From Candidatus Tepidifontimicrobium thermophilum (lineage in GTDB: Bacteria; Sysuimicrobiota; Sysuimicrobiia; Sysuimicrobiales; Sysuimicrobiaceae): 64,000 bases of DNA. The translations under genes were made by a program, and so were the position numbers. Below the pieces are notes generated by a model. That model worked only from the letters and a program-made list of their open reading frames with translations. It made no database searches and was not told the DNA's origin. Of the stretch, positions 1,356 through 7,670 are shown in pieces. The stretch's first letter is position 1, and every line of letters starts with the position of its first letter. The stretch lies in assembly GCA_031296405.1 (NCBI GenBank), contig JAVKKH010000004.1:1-64000 (forward strand). Direction: 5' to 3'.

Positions 1356-2328
1356 GCGTGGCCTCCTGAGCGTACAACCAGCACATCACGCGCCTGCCGC
1401 CCTCCACGGGCACGAGGGGAGGGGCCTGTCCGCACGGATCGAACCGGGCCGGGCACCGCGCCGCGAACCGGCACCCGGCCGGAGGGTTCAGCAGGCTGGG
1501 GGGACGTCCGGGCAGCGGTTGCGGAGCCCGTTCCTCCCGCAGGCTGACCACGCTGGCCCGAAGGGCCTGGGCGTAGGGGTGCATGGGGCCGGTGAGGAAG
1601 CGATCTAGGGGCCCGAACTCCACGATCTGGCCCGCGTACATGAGGGCCACGTCGTCCGCCAGCTCGCTGGCGGTAGCCAAATCGTGGGTGATCAGGAGGA
1701 AACTGGTGCCGAGTTCCCACCGCAATGTCTTGAGCAGGTTCAGGAGGTTCGCCTGGGTCAACACATCCAGCGCCGAGGTGGGCTCGTCCAGCACGACCAG
1801 CTGGGGCCTGAGGACCAGGGCCATGGCGATGGCCACCCTCTGACGCATCCCTCCACTGAGTTCGAACGGGTAGCGGTCCGCGAACTCTGGGGGTACCCCC
1901 ACCCGCCGCAAGGCTTCCACCACGTGATCCCGTGCCTCCTCCGGCCGGCGCACCCGTCCGTGCAGCCACAAGGGCTCGGCCACCTGGTCGCCTACCCGCA
2001 GCACGGGGTTGAGGGAGTTCATGGCGGCCTGCGGGACCAGCGACAGCCGAGCCCAGCGGACCTCCTGCCGGAACCGCTCCTCCGGCAGGACCATGAGGTC
2101 CTCCCCGTCTAGCAGCACCCGACCGCTGTAGTGGGCCACGTTGCGGGGCAGTAGCCGTAAGATGGCGCGCGCCAGGGAGGTCTTCCCGCAGCCGCTCTCC
2201 CCTAGCACCGCCACCGTACGGCCGCGTCCGACCTCCAGGTACACGCCGTCCACGGCCCGCACCGGCCCGGCGGCGGTGCGGAAGTGGAGATGCAGGTCCT
2301 CCACGCGCAGGAGCGGGGCCACCGTCAC
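1345..2328 (-). CDS. oppD: Peptide ABC transporter ATP-binding protein, OppD/DppD type
   Basis: This is the partner ATPase of OppF in the same importer. The 327-aa protein shows Walker A GESGCGKT at 43-50, the signature LSGGMRQR, Walker B LVVLDEPTSALD and the typical C-terminal cysteines (CRFAARCP). Much upstream sequence is open in this frame, but the start is placed at GTG 2328 because it overlaps the oppC stop in a GTGA and gives the usual family length. The operon order is binding protein, B, C, D, F. Confidence 0.92.
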   Translation of the reverse strand: MTVAPLLRVEDLHLHFRTAAGPVRAVDGVYLEVGRGRTVAVLGESGCGKTSLARAILRLLPRNVAHYSGRVLLDGEDLMVLPEERFRQEVRWARLSLVPQAAMNSLNPVLRVGDQVAEPLWLHGRVRRPEEARDHVVEALRRVGVPPEFADRYPFELSGGMRQRVAIAMALVLRPQLVVLDEPTSALDVLTQANLLNLLKTLRWELGTSFLLITHDLATASELADDVALMYAGQIVEFGPLDRFLTGPMHPYAQALRASVVSLREERAPQPLPGRPPSLLNPPAGCRFAARCPARFDPCGQAPPLVPVEGGRRVMCWLYAQEATRAR

Positions 2329-3647
2329 AGCTCCCTCAGCCGGGGGTTGAAGACCCGATCCAGGGCGAAGCCCAGGAGCGTGAAGGCCAACCCACTTAGC
2401 ATGAGCATGAAGGCGGGCTCCAGGACCCAGTAGGTGTAGCCCACATAGAGGGCGCCCGCGCGGTAAGCGTCCTCGATGACCTTCCCCCAGGTGGGTAAGA
2501 CCGGGTCGCCGAGCCCCAACAGGGCCAGGGTGGCCTCCAGGAACACGAAGCCGGGGATGAGGGTTACGAACTGGGGCAAGAGCACCGGGATAGCCCTCGG
2601 GACCAGGTACACCGCCACCATGCGCAGGTTCCCCACCCCGTACGCGCGGGCAGCTTCCACGTAGGGCGCTTCCTTCACCTGCAGGAACAGGGCGCGGTAG
2701 GTCTTGATGCCGCCCCCGAAGATCCCCAACAGGATCACCGCACCCAGGATCACCCACAGGCTCCGGGAGTAGAGGGTGCCGATCATGATGAGGATGGGCA
2801 GGCCGGGCAGGATCAGGTTCACCTCGGTGATCCGCTGGATGAGGCCATCCACCCACCCGCCGTACCACGCACCCACCGCGGCGATCAGCAGCGTACTCAG
2901 GGACGACCCCACCGCCGCCAAAAGTCCGAAGGCCAGCGCGATGGGCGTCCCCCACAGCAAGGGGAGCAAGAGGTCGCGCCGCAGGTGGTCCGTCCCTGCG
3001 AGCCCGTACACCTCCCCGTACACCACCAGCTCCGCCCGCACCGAGGAGCCCGGCTCGAACAGGAAAGCCCGCACCGTCAAGGTGTACCGGCCGGGGACTG
3101 CCTCTCCGGGCCGGTCTGCCGTGGAGAACAACATCTGCTCCGGGGCGCCCCCGAGGTTCCGGCGCAGCTCCGCGTCCGCGGACAGACGGTAGATGTCCTG
3201 GCGCCGCGGGGTCAGGTCCGCCAGGCGCAGCTCGGAGCCTGTGGGAGTCCGCCAGCTGAGCTCCAGCTGCGGCGCCTGCTCCTGGTAGTCGGCGTACACG
3301 AACACCGCGACCTCGGTGGGGAACCGACGGTAGCGGTACTCGAAGGGGAGGTCGAACTGCACCTCTCGCACGCCGCTGCCCAGGTCCCGCTCCCGGGCAG
3401 GTACCCGGGGGCTGTGCACCACCAAGGTGCGCGGTAACCGGCCTCCCCACAGCCAGTTCAGCCACTCGGGCCGCGCGTTGCGGGGGTTGCGGGGCCAGGC
3501 GGCCTCCCCCCCACTCCACAGGCGGACCGCCTCCGGGTACGGGATCGCCACCAGCGCGTACACGGAGATCCCCACGAGAAACGCGAGGATGGCAAGTCCC
3601 GCCAACGCGGACGGGTACCGCACCAGCTCCCGTAGGGTGCCCCTCAC
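2325..3647 (-). CDS. oppC: Peptide ABC transporter permease OppC with a large external insertion
   Basis: This 440-aa permease has a first membrane helix at about 13-35, then some 170 extra residues rich in beta-strand character, and only then the canonical OppC core beginning near residue 216 with GLAGTDHLRRDLLLPLLWG. The ATPase-coupling loop includes EAPYVEAARAYGV. OppC proteins usually carry only a short loop between helix 1 and the core, so the insertion is probably an extracytoplasmic domain that meets the binding protein. The start is GTG 3647, overlapping the oppB stop in a GTGA. The transport substrate is unknown. Confidence 0.88.
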   Translation of the reverse strand: MRGTLRELVRYPSALAGLAILAFLVGISVYALVAIPYPEAVRLWSGGEAAWPRNPRNARPEWLNWLWGGRLPRTLVVHSPRVPARERDLGSGVREVQFDLPFEYRYRRFPTEVAVFVYADYQEQAPQLELSWRTPTGSELRLADLTPRRQDIYRLSADAELRRNLGGAPEQMLFSTADRPGEAVPGRYTLTVRAFLFEPGSSVRAELVVYGEVYGLAGTDHLRRDLLLPLLWGTPIALAFGLLAAVGSSLSTLLIAAVGAWYGGWVDGLIQRITEVNLILPGLPILIMIGTLYSRSLWVILGAVILLGIFGGGIKTYRALFLQVKEAPYVEAARAYGVGNLRMVAVYLVPRAIPVLLPQFVTLIPGFVFLEATLALLGLGDPVLPTWGKVIEDAYRAGALYVGYTYWVLEPAFMLMLSGLAFTLLGFALDRVFNPRLREL

Positions 3648-4765
3648 CGCTCGCCTCCGAGGCCGACCTTCACCCGTGGGTCCACCACCGCGTACACGAT
3701 GTCCAGGGCGAACACTGTGACCGCCAGCAGGTAGGCGTACAGGATGGTCGTCCCCACGATCACCGGGGTGTCGTACAGCCCCACCGCCTGGTACAGGGCG
3801 CGCCCCAGCCCCGGCCAGTTGAACACCGTCTCCAGGACGATCGCCCCCGTCCACGCGCCGATGAGGCCCAAGGCGAAGGACGTGAGGATGGTCGGCAGGG
3901 CGGGCCGGAGGATGTACCGCCGCTCCACCAGGCGGCCCGGGAGTCCCTTGGCCCGCGCCAGCTCCACGTAGTCCTCGCTGCTGAAGATGAGGAAGAAGGT
4001 CCGCCACGCATAGACCGACAGGAAGATGGAGCTCAAGGCCAGGCTGGCCAGGGGCAGGACCATGTGCTTGAGGACGCTGGCGGCGTACGCCAGCTTGCTT
4101 TCGGGGGGTGGCGCGTCCACCATGCCGCCGAAGGGGAGCCACCGCAGGCCCGCGGCGAAGACCAGGATGAGGAAGATGCCGTAGAACCACGCGGGCGCCG
4201 CAGAGGTCGGCGCCAGCGCCACCACCAGTCGGTCCGCAAGGCCTCCGTACCGGCGCGAGAGCGCCAGAGCCGCCGCCACCGACGAGAAGAACAGCACAAG
4301 CTGCGCGCTGAGGAACAGCAGCAAAGTGGCAGGCAACCGGTCCAGGATGATCTGCCGCACCAGGCGCGATCCGGTGTCGCTCGTCATGCGCTCCGCGAAG
4401 CCCAGGCGCAGCAGCAGGGCATCCCGCAGGTACCCCACCGACCGGGACAAGAACGGCCGGTCCAAGCCCAGGCGGCGCTCCTCGTTACGGATCATCTGCT
4501 CGGCCACCCGCTCCCGCACGTCCGCGGGCAGCCGCCGCATCTGCTCGTTGAGGGAGATGGCCAGGGCCACCTGCTCCCGGATCTCCGCCCGCTTGATCTG
4601 GTCCACGTACCCGCCCATGTTGGCCACCAGGATGGTGAGGTACACCCCCACCACCACCGCGGCGAACAGGGCCACCAGCCGCGTGGCGGAGTACAGAAGG
4701 ACCCGCATGGCGGGGTGCTGCCGCACCCCGCCGCGGGGTGCCGTCACGGCCACGGCCTGTGCCAT
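3644..4765 (-). CDS. oppB: Peptide ABC transporter permease OppB
   Basis: This is the OppB-type membrane subunit of 373 aa, with an N-terminal helix at about 22-48, a charged external region of some 80 residues and five further helices. The EAA coupling loop reads DYVELARAKGLPGRLVERRY and the core ends with YAVVDPRVKVG. The ATG at 4765 lies 10 bases after the binding-protein stop but has no clear ribosome site. An internal ATG at 4708 (MRVLLYS), directly before the first helix, is a realistic alternative start. It couples to oppC by a GTGA overlap. Confidence 0.9.
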   Translation of the reverse strand: MAQAVAVTAPRGGVRQHPAMRVLLYSATRLVALFAAVVVGVYLTILVANMGGYVDQIKRAEIREQVALAISLNEQMRRLPADVRERVAEQMIRNEERRLGLDRPFLSRSVGYLRDALLLRLGFAERMTSDTGSRLVRQIILDRLPATLLLFLSAQLVLFFSSVAAALALSRRYGGLADRLVVALAPTSAAPAWFYGIFLILVFAAGLRWLPFGGMVDAPPPESKLAYAASVLKHMVLPLASLALSSIFLSVYAWRTFFLIFSSEDYVELARAKGLPGRLVERRYILRPALPTILTSFALGLIGAWTGAIVLETVFNWPGLGRALYQAVGLYDTPVIVGTTILYAYLLAVTVFALDIVYAVVDPRVKVGLGGER

Positions 4766-4775
4766 GGAGGGGGAC

Positions 4776-7250
4776 TCACCGCGCCGGCAGGGAGGTGAAG
4801 GTCAGGGAGGCGAAGCTGGGCACGCTCACCACCTTGGAGACCACCACCGCCTCCAGACGGTTCGAACCTGGCGTCAAACGGGACGTGACCTCGCGGCCGA
4901 GGAGCACCCGCCACACCTCCCCCGCCCGCTGCGCCCGGCCCTGGGCCACCAGCTCGTTGCGGGCGTTGAACAGCAGGTACTTGACTTCCTGGAGGTCCTG
5001 AGGCGGGTACGGCTTGTCGGCCTCCGCCACGCGGATCTCGAAGGCGGCCTCGCTGCCCGCGGTGACCTGCCGGGGACCGACAACACTCACGGACGCCAGC
5101 CGGGGCTCGCCGAACCGCAGCCACTTGGTCGCGGGGTCTGGGAAGCGGCCGAACCGGCGCAGCTCCACGATCTTCTCCACGGGGGAGACACGCTGCAGCA
5201 GGAACGGGCCCATGCCGACCCAGTAGTGGCCCCGGCCCGCCCGCCACGCAGCCAACAGCCGCCACCGCTGACGCGCCTCCTCCGGCTTGATCCACCGGCC
5301 GAGAGCCCGCTCGAAGGGGATGTAGTTCTCCGCCCGCGCGGCCTCCAGCTCCCGGTCCAGGACCGCCAGGGTGGGGCCGGCCACGTAGTTCAGCCGCTCC
5401 ACCTTCTTCTCCGCGGCCTTGGCGGCGGTGAAGGCGGCGCGGCCCGCGGCTTCCGCCCGGATGCCGAGGGCCACCGTGTGCCACGGGCCCGGTCCGAACC
5501 CGTACACGGGCCAGAAGCTCCCTGCCGCAGTCATCAGCTCCGCGTCCATGGTCCAGGAGGTGCTGTAGAACTCCGCCACCAGGGGGTCCTCGCTCACGAT
5601 CCGGAACCCCCGGAACGTTTCCATGAAGGACTGGAAGCTGGGCACGTAGGAGCGGTCAAACAGAGGACTGTGTTCGTCGGCGCGTTCGAAGGTCAGGATC
5701 CAGCCCAGCAGGATGTCCCCCAGGGACAGGCGGTTGCCGTCGTGCCACTGCACCTTGCGGAACAGATCCTTCTCGAAGTACACGGTGCTCTTCACCAGGG
5801 CCTCCAGGCCCTGGGGGTGCTTCTCCCGCACTGTGACGAACCGCTGGGCACGGGAGTCCCACCCGATGATGGCGTCCTCGGGCACACGGATGGTGGGTGC
5901 GAAGCGCAGCTGAACCCAGTCCGAGTTCTTGGTGACCGGCAGCCCCTGCTTGACGGTGATCTCCACCCGCTCCACCCGCTGCCGCTCCGGCAGCCCCGTG
6001 TGCGGGTTGGCGATCAGGGGGTAGTCCTGGGTGGCCCGGTACAGGGTGGTGTCGAAGATCCAGTTGGACCCTCCGATGGGGTTCCACGGCTCCGGAAGGA
6101 TGCTGGGGACTCCGATGCGCACGACCCCGCCCGCGCGGCCCCGGAACCGCACCGTGTACGGCCACAGGAACGAACCCGAAAGGCCGCCCGCGAGGTCCCC
6201 CACCAGCTCCAGCTCCGCCCGCCAGGGCCAGACGGACTGCCGTTCCACCAGCCACAACCGCACGGAGTCCTGCAGTGCCAGCTCCAGCGCCCGGGCCATC
6301 AGGCGCGCCCGCTCCCCGACGCTCCGGAAGTCGCGCTTGTTCAGACGGTCGCTCAAGCGGTCGAACTCCGGGCTGGGCCGGTACGCCTGCCACAGGGGAC
6401 GCGCCAGTCCCCGCTTGGTGTAGAAGAAGTCGAAGTTGTCCGCCTGGTCGCGGTCGATCACCGTGCTGATCCAGCCTCCCGTGTACACGTGCCACCGGCC
6501 CTCCGCGGGGTCCTGGACGATCCAAAGAGGGTTGAGGTCCGCGGCCCGACCGTACCGGCGCTCCACGACAAACCCGAGCTGCTCCAGCAGACCCGCCACG
6601 TAGTCTCCGATCTGGCGACGTTCGTCCTCCACCCGGATGAGGAAGGTGATGGTGACAGGCCGGCCGCGGAACTGCCACCGCCCGCCCACCAGGTTCGCCC
6701 CCAACTTCTGCATCTCCTCGGTGATGACCGAACGCGCCCGCTCCGGGTCGTGCCGGTAGCGGATCTCCAGCCGCCGGGCCACGTCCGCCAGCCGGGCGTA
6801 GTCTGGGAAGGCGGTGTTGATGGGCAGCCACCGGGGGACCCCCATTCCGCCCATGATCTCCTGTGCGATGTGACGGCGGTCCACCAGCCAGTTCATGGCC
6901 TCGCGGATGCGCGGCACCGCAAACGGGTTGAGGCGGTCCGTGCCAGGGAAGACGGGCCCCACGGGGTTGAAGGTCAGCTCGTGGTACAGTCCGTACGAGA
7001 CCGCGGACCGCAGGGTGCGGGACTGGCGGATCCGGTTGGCGATCTCCGGGTTGGCGGTGGCGCTGAACCAGGCCTGCAGGTCGTTCGCCTCCAGCCGGCG
7101 GACCGCGGCGGCGTCGCTGGGTTCTTCCACCGCCACCACCCCGTCCACCCACGTACCCACCCGCTGGGCCTGGGCTCCCGCGGCAGCGGGCAGGACCAGG
7201 AGCGCCACCCAGGTCAGCGCCCACAGTTTCCCCCTGCACATGCGCCGCAT
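4776..7250 (-). CDS. Extracellular solute-binding protein, family 5 type, apparently circularly permuted
   Basis: This 824-aa exported protein begins with a signal peptide (hydrophobic core about 9-25). Residues 30-372 match the second half of family 5 binding proteins, including VPRIREAMNWLVDRRHIAQE and the ageing-helix region around 210-230. Residues 373-710 match the first half, including VQWHDGNRLSLGDILLGW and GMGPFLLQRVSPVEKIVELR. Residues 715-824 look like an Ig-like domain. The lobes therefore run in reversed order. The ATG at 7250 is chosen over a GTG at 7259 because AAAGGGAGG lies about 10 bases before it. It is first in the opp operon and should capture the substrate outside the cell; peptide or sugar oligomer is possible. 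Confidence 0.85.
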   Translation of the reverse strand: MRRMCRGKLWALTWVALLVLPAAAGAQAQRVGTWVDGVVAVEEPSDAAAVRRLEANDLQAWFSATANPEIANRIRQSRTLRSAVSYGLYHELTFNPVGPVFPGTDRLNPFAVPRIREAMNWLVDRRHIAQEIMGGMGVPRWLPINTAFPDYARLADVARRLEIRYRHDPERARSVITEEMQKLGANLVGGRWQFRGRPVTITFLIRVEDERRQIGDYVAGLLEQLGFVVERRYGRAADLNPLWIVQDPAEGRWHVYTGGWISTVIDRDQADNFDFFYTKRGLARPLWQAYRPSPEFDRLSDRLNKRDFRSVGERARLMARALELALQDSVRLWLVERQSVWPWRAELELVGDLAGGLSGSFLWPYTVRFRGRAGGVVRIGVPSILPEPWNPIGGSNWIFDTTLYRATQDYPLIANPHTGLPERQRVERVEITVKQGLPVTKNSDWVQLRFAPTIRVPEDAIIGWDSRAQRFVTVREKHPQGLEALVKSTVYFEKDLFRKVQWHDGNRLSLGDILLGWILTFERADEHSPLFDRSYVPSFQSFMETFRGFRIVSEDPLVAEFYSTSWTMDAELMTAAGSFWPVYGFGPGPWHTVALGIRAEAAGRAAFTAAKAAEKKVERLNYVAGPTLAVLDRELEAARAENYIPFERALGRWIKPEEARQRWRLLAAWRAGRGHYWVGMGPFLLQRVSPVEKIVELRRFGRFPDPATKWLRFGEPRLASVSVVGPRQVTAGSEAAFEIRVAEADKPYPPQDLQEVKYLLFNARNELVAQGRAQRAGEVWRVLLGREVTSRLTPGSNRLEAVVVSKVVSVPSFASLTFTSLPAR

Positions 7251-7298
7251 CCCGCGCACACCTCCCTTTTAGTGGTCAGAGCCAGGAGCGGTCTGCCG

Positions 7299-7670
7299 TC
7301 AGGACAGCACCGACCGGGCGCGATCCAGATCGCTCACGGCCAGGACGAGCCGTGTGCGGGTGGCCAGGTACGCCCAGTCGATGTTCACGCCCGCGTCGGC
7401 CAGCTTCCGGGCCACCGAGCCCAGGGTCCCTGGCTGGTCCACCACGTCCACCACGAGGACGTCCCGCTCCGCCACCACCGGGATCCCGGCTTCCTCCAGG
7501 GCCCGGCGCGCGGCGGCGGCGTCCTCCACCAGGACGTGGATCCGACCCTTCCCCTGGAAGGGTACGCCGCAGAAGCCCTCGATGTTCACCCCGGCCCGGC
7601 CCAGGGCCTCCCCCAGCCGCGCCAGGGTGCCCGGGCGGTCTAGTAGCTCCACCTGCAGGTCCTTAGGCAT
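7299..7670 (-). CDS. Tandem ACT-domain protein
   Basis: This 123-aa protein consists of two ACT domains back to back, each opening with the typical loop: ELLDRPGTLARLGEALGRAG at about 8-27 and VVDQPGTLGSVARKLADAG in the second copy. ACT domains bind amino acids or other small effectors and often act as free-standing sensors. There is no catalytic domain. The ATG at 7670 has a GGGAGGGAGG site just ahead. It sits 15 bases after the radical SAM gene and before the opp operon, so it could sense an amino acid linked to either, but this is inference. Confidence 0.85.
   Translation of the reverse strand: MPKDLQVELLDRPGTLARLGEALGRAGVNIEGFCGVPFQGKGRIHVLVEDAAAARRALEEAGIPVVAERDVLVVDVVDQPGTLGSVARKLADAGVNIDWAYLATRTRLVLAVSDLDRARSVLS

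Follow-up and report, generated by a model that had tools for sequence, protein, structure and literature searches.

Evidence for a circularly permuted family 5 substrate-binding protein encoded in an Opp-type transport operon

Results

Organization of the locus

The window analyzed here is a 64,000-nucleotide stretch of DNA from Candidatus Tepidifontimicrobium thermophilum (contig JAVKKH010000004.1, positions 1 to 64,000). Its minus strand carries an open reading frame at positions 4776-7259 that begins with a GTG codon, contains no internal stops, and encodes an 827-residue substrate-binding protein (SBP) with an N terminus resembling a signal peptide. The features of the SBP and of the transport genes that follow it are listed below.

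4776-7259, minus: SBP gene, very likely a circular permutant of family 5 (open reading frame; Pfam SBP_bac_5, 60.7 bits; swapped match to 7fi3_A; AlphaFold2 model with pLDDT 95.2 and pTM 0.92)
7170-7259, minus: signal peptide, residues 1-30, without a lipobox (sequence MRGMRRMCRGKLWALTWVALLVLPAAAGAQ; low pLDDT at residues 1-23)
6144-7169, minus: residues 31-372, corresponding to the textbook second half (B) but located first (in native order, profile-profile comparison aligns profile columns 7-331 with ordinary family 5 proteins at E 7e-29; the second half of TkOppA is also matched)
6120-6164, minus: junction of the old C terminus and the old N terminus, approximately residues 366-380 (best plateau of rotation cuts q360-q410; a seamless junction is also seen in archaeal homologue L222 compared with normal-order L224)
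5106-6143, minus: residues 373-718, corresponding to the textbook first half (A) but located second (match to the first half of TkOppA; rotation tests)
4779-5105, minus: C-terminal Ig-like beta-sandwich, residues 719-827 (at least 8 strands, pLDDT ~97)
3644-4765, minus: OppB-type permease (BPD_transp_1, E 1e-25; after the SBP gene in 69 of 71 loci)
2325-3647, minus: OppC-type permease of ~440 aa (BPD_transp_1; present in 68 of 71 loci)
2973-3566, minus: stretch of ~200 residues between TM1 and TM2 of OppC (hydropathy; the alignment extends across it in 66 of 68 loci)
1345-2331, minus: OppD-type ATPase, start approximate (ABC_tran and oligo_HPY; downstream position conserved)
330-1355, minus: OppF-type ATPase (ABC_tran and oligo_HPY; downstream position conserved)

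This gene order is conserved. In 66-69 of 71 loci, genes for the SBP, OppB, OppC, and two oligopeptide-type ATPases were consecutive and shared a strand. The permuted SBP gene was nearly always the first of the SBP-OppB-OppC-OppD-OppF operon. The gene immediately upstream of the SBP gene (window positions 7299-7670, minus) has the same orientation and encodes a double ACT-domain protein.

The halves of the SBP are in the reverse of the textbook order

Pfam analysis of the SBP revealed a match to SBP_bac_5 (PF00496) that was confined to residues 38-272, corresponding to profile positions 148-355 of 368 (60.7 bits, against a cutoff of 32.4). The first half on its own gave no Pfam match and was recognized only by profiles and by comparison with TkOppA, and the Ig-like beta-sandwich likewise had no Pfam match. 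When the PDB was searched with phmmer, one protein, 7fi3_A, was matched in two significant stretches whose order was swapped: residues 398-570 of 7fi3_A aligned with residues 106-267 of the query (E 4.5e-17), and residues 69-314 aligned with residues 457-714 (E 6e-9). A profile version of the search likewise matched 7fi3_A in swapped stretches.

The matched protein is OppA of Thermococcus kodakarensis (TkOppA, PDB 7fi3), the closest solved relative, which is homologous to the window SBP in both halves, has the motifs YT(G/E)GW and NPFAV..R.A in common with it, and, according to the title of the PDB entry, was solved with an endogenous pentapeptide. TkOppA differs from the window SBP in that its halves are in the textbook order and in that it has no Ig-like domain where the chain of the window SBP is cut. 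Thus, of two properties expected of a canonical family 5 protein, homology in both halves and the canonical order of those halves, the window SBP has the first and lacks the second.

The order of the halves was assessed by rotation, using a profile built from 70 homologues and a 598-residue fragment of TkOppA as the target. The native-order profile scored 104 bits and covered one half of TkOppA only, whereas a profile rotated to start anywhere at residues 270-450 scored 188-189 bits in a single alignment over positions 59-577. Permuted homologues showed the opposite behavior to TkOppA, with scores of ~325 bits that dropped on rotation. In profile-profile comparisons with 11 ordinary family 5 proteins, the native order scored 238 over 294 columns; rotation raised the score to a plateau of 303-305 when the cut lay at residues 360-410, with up to 460 columns aligned, and the rotated match ran across the old junction, as it does in normal proteins. 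Rotation also extended the Pfam match from profile positions 148-355 to 113-355 and raised it from 60.9 to 68.3 bits.

The first-pass annotation had proposed a second half followed by a first half and then an Ig-like domain, and had named as support a match to ordinary family 5 proteins only after a circular shift of about 340 residues. The layout held, with boundaries at ~30-372, ~373-718, and 719-827. This criterion was satisfied at the sequence-profile level: TkOppA gave one continuous match only after rotation, and the best cut at residues 360-410 equals a shift of 330-380 residues from the mature N terminus. The further proposal that the break falls at the hinge between lobes failed in detail. 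Alignment to TkOppA places the new N terminus in a loop ~80 residues before the R..AMNWLVDR helix; by the topology of DppA this site is inside lobe I, which puts the break in a loop of that lobe and not exactly at the lobe-lobe hinge. In a natural permutant, the old termini should be joined in frame and a single loop of the old chain should supply both new termini; both features were found, from the sequences of L222 and L224 and from the TkOppA alignment.

An alternative explanation is that two half-genes of different family 5 proteins were fused in the wrong order. In a single sequence, fused complementary halves would look like a permutant, and the first half is far more diverged from Pfam than the second. 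However, 7fi3 is the nearest normal-order protein for each of the halves; trees built from the two halves are broadly congruent; the junction is that of the native C and N termini, with no evident linker; and homologues of 35-46% identity are known in both orders. We consider such a fusion very unlikely, and there is little doubt in our view that the window SBP is a circular permutant of an Opp/Dpp-type SBP.

Predicted fold and continuity of the reading frame

An AlphaFold2 model built with 124 homologues was of high quality (pLDDT 95.2, pTM 0.92) and formed one compact domain; with only 11 homologues, pLDDT was 49.7 and the model was unusable. Foldseek searches with the model returned family 5 binding proteins as the best PDB matches, with 7fi3_A at the top (E 4e-19). 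These alignments covered only ~310-394 columns, with sequential TM-scores of 0.37-0.50 by target length. Coverage of about half of the protein is expected for a permutant, because an aligner that works sequentially has a place for only one of the two halves. Ordinary cluster C (SBP_bac_5) proteins, such as OppA, DppA, NikA, and AppA, have homologous halves and the same kind of operon partners and supply the best structural matches, but their halves are in the opposite order, and they consequently align sequentially over about one half only. No MglB-like (Type I/cluster B) structure was among the listed structural matches, which were cluster C proteins. The model thus predicts, with high confidence, one compact family 5 fold; the order of the halves is shown by sequence and not by an order-independent three-dimensional superposition.

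Two outcomes had been named in advance as refuting a permutation: superposition of the predicted structure on ordinary family 5 proteins in normal order, and the presence of two complete binding domains. Neither was observed, since the confident model aligned sequentially over about one half and no open reading frame contained two complete domains. The claim that the continuous frame is not an assembly join of two genes also held, given the single open reading frame and its collinear homologues. Ten close homologues (67-96% identity) and 80 SBP loci from another collection (43-96% identity) are collinear with the window SBP over almost their entire length, which rules out an assembly join. We regard it as all but excluded that the gene is an artefact of assembly or frameshifting, or that it encodes two complete binding domains in tandem. 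We found no evidence for either, and against them stand one open frame in more than 70 loci, drawn from assemblies that are unrelated and from two domains of life, the absence of any open reading frame with doubled halves, and the single compact, confident model.

Distribution and membrane anchoring

Full-length collinear relatives were found within the genus, family, and order of the window, and the nearest named records were from Bacterium HR32, an Armatimonadetes MAG, and ANGP1 MAGs, which points to a thermophilic or soil member of this uncultured group as the source of the window. A scan of genome contigs returned 172 relatives, of which 80 were kept (collinear, 43-96% identity). Those kept include members from Chloroflexota, Pseudomonadota (Thioalkalivibrio, Halomonas, and Thiococcus), Bacillota, Lentisphaerota, and Bipolaricaulota and, among the archaea, from Bathyarchaeota, Sulfolobales, and Caldarchaeum. 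In a sample of Thermoproteota, 165 of 250 genomes had a match, most listed matches spanned nearly the whole profile in one alignment, and many genomes encoded a permuted protein of 820-930 aa. Matches were present in 22 of 251 Chloroflexota genomes. Among 1192 open reading frames, both halves occurred in the permuted order in 200 records and in the textbook order in 2. The 200 records include some duplicates, in which the same gene was cut differently, and reduce to 74 representatives at <58% identity. The permutation is natural and old, being common to hundreds of bacteria and archaea, and what the first-pass annotation had treated as a single odd gene belongs to a large, old family.

A duplicated half, as would be carried by a tandem-duplication intermediate, was not found in any open reading frame searched, and a search of a plasmid collection gave no match. 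All 13 of the archaeal members had a C-terminal transmembrane segment, and an N-terminal lipobox was present in 24 of the 26 Chloroflexota members. We therefore rejected a role of the permutation in any single mode of anchoring, as bacterial members use the N terminus and archaeal members the C terminus.

Textbook-order homologues nested among permuted archaeal proteins

The textbook order is found in two archaeal homologues, L224 (genome G108) and L226 (G185), whose matches to TkOppA are in order, yet the proteins closest to them, at 35-46% identity, are permuted. In one of these, from genome G077, a piece matching residues 375-802 lies directly before a piece matching residues 7-365 within one open reading frame. 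In a tree of the joined SBP halves, L224 and L226 were nested inside permuted lineages with support of 100/99, and none of 200 bootstrap trees needed only one change of order. The AU test rejected a single clade of the three normal-order proteins (p 0.0025) when more relatives were included; with fewer rows, in a smaller tree, a single order change was not rejected (p 0.079). TkOppA is placed with less certainty, as it sits on a long branch. A tree of OppB, OppC, OppD, and OppF, which is independent of SBP order, also nested the normal-order operons inside the permuted ones (99/99). The five-gene operon has the same layout with permuted and with normal-order SBPs. In the closest permuted relatives, the first half runs straight into a Thr-rich linker and a transmembrane segment without an Ig-like domain, from which we infer that re-joining would have been simpler.

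The nesting of L224 and L226 in both the SBP and the permease/ATPase trees suggests that the permutation was probably reversed there, the SBP gene of these two genomes having returned to the textbook order within an orthologous operon. On this bolder reading, which we consider likely, a family-wide permutation was undone in at least one archaeal lineage (G108 and G185; perhaps separately in the lineage of TkOppA), and the Ig-like domain was lost in sister lineages. A rival account, which concerns the history only, holds that the textbook order is ancestral in the archaeal clade and that independent permutations occurred in several lineages, without reversal. In its favor, ordinary family 5 proteins all have the textbook order, and the root provided by the outgroup is distant. 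Against it, the SBP and permease trees both place L224 and L226 among permuted lineages, and this account therefore needs several parallel permutations with an identical break and junction. We regard it as unlikely and favor reversal. If the reversal is true, the connectivity of the cluster C fold is evolutionarily reversible.

Coevolution of the OppC insert with the permutation was considered separately and rejected, since normal-order operons also encode a long OppC (~500 aa).

Discussion

We propose that the old C terminus was joined to the old N terminus at approximately residues 366-380 and that a surface loop of lobe I was opened to give the new termini. By sequence, the chain runs from signal peptide to second half, first half, and Ig-like domain, and it is predicted with high confidence to fold into one compact domain; the Ig-like domain and the leader or anchor hang from the new termini. 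We infer that the permutation arose early in the history of a bacterial-archaeal clade, by the usual route in which a gene is duplicated in tandem, fused, and truncated. In functional terms, the window SBP is very likely the binding protein of an Opp/Dpp-type ABC importer; it would catch its solute and pass it to an OppBC channel powered by OppDF, and Venus-flytrap closure is inferred, in the absence of binding data. The operon context and the pentapeptide of TkOppA, rather than binding or transport data, point to a peptide or peptide-like solute as the most likely ligand.

In the open-access literature that we searched, the only natural permuted ABC binding protein described was TpMglB-2 (Tp0684) of Treponema, a cluster B protein for which its authors proposed the designation "Type Ic/Cluster Bc" (PMC4990184). 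Like the window SBP, TpMglB-2 is a natural permutant common to many species, and it has kept its fold and ligand binding (PMC4990184). It differs in belonging to another family, with a Type I/cluster B sugar-binding fold and another break point. By analogy with Cluster Bc, the group of the window SBP could be regarded as a permuted subclass of cluster C. The Sulfolobus dipeptide-type binding proteins CbtA and OppASs are ones that we take to be possible permuted members, on the basis of host group only.

No description of a permuted family 5 protein was found in the open-access literature searched; subscription papers were mostly outside the search, and an earlier description is not excluded. 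Family 5 is among the most studied groups of binding proteins. An entire permuted branch nevertheless appears to be undescribed in the literature searched; it occurs in most of the Thermoproteota sampled and in cultured Halomonas, Thioalkalivibrio, Thiococcus, and Bellilinea. The rearrangement was missed by annotation because Pfam sees only the second half. Homologues of ~40% identity in both orders and in the same operon constitute a natural experiment on the effect of chain connectivity on folding, export, anchoring, and permease docking.

We also noted a second, very divergent family (L021, L022, L023, L025, L027, and L028) with the half order of the window SBP. Its first half is detectable toward the C-terminal side. 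The N-terminal part, compared for five of the six members, can be aligned along its full length with the second half, but only in profile-profile comparison (E 1.3e-4 local, 4e-7 global), and it lacks the R..A...DR helix motif. At least L022 is located after a branched-chain-amino-acid-type binding protein and not beside Opp genes.

Finally, one ANGP1 bacterium (genome G013, contig C163) encodes a permuted SBP and OppB in one open frame of 1290 aa (L029, positions 2337-6206). This may be a natural fusion, but a sequencing error is also possible, since the two are separate in the sister genome G025. Directly upstream of this permuted gene, at positions 784-2541 of L029, lies a gene for a family 5 binding protein of ordinary order.
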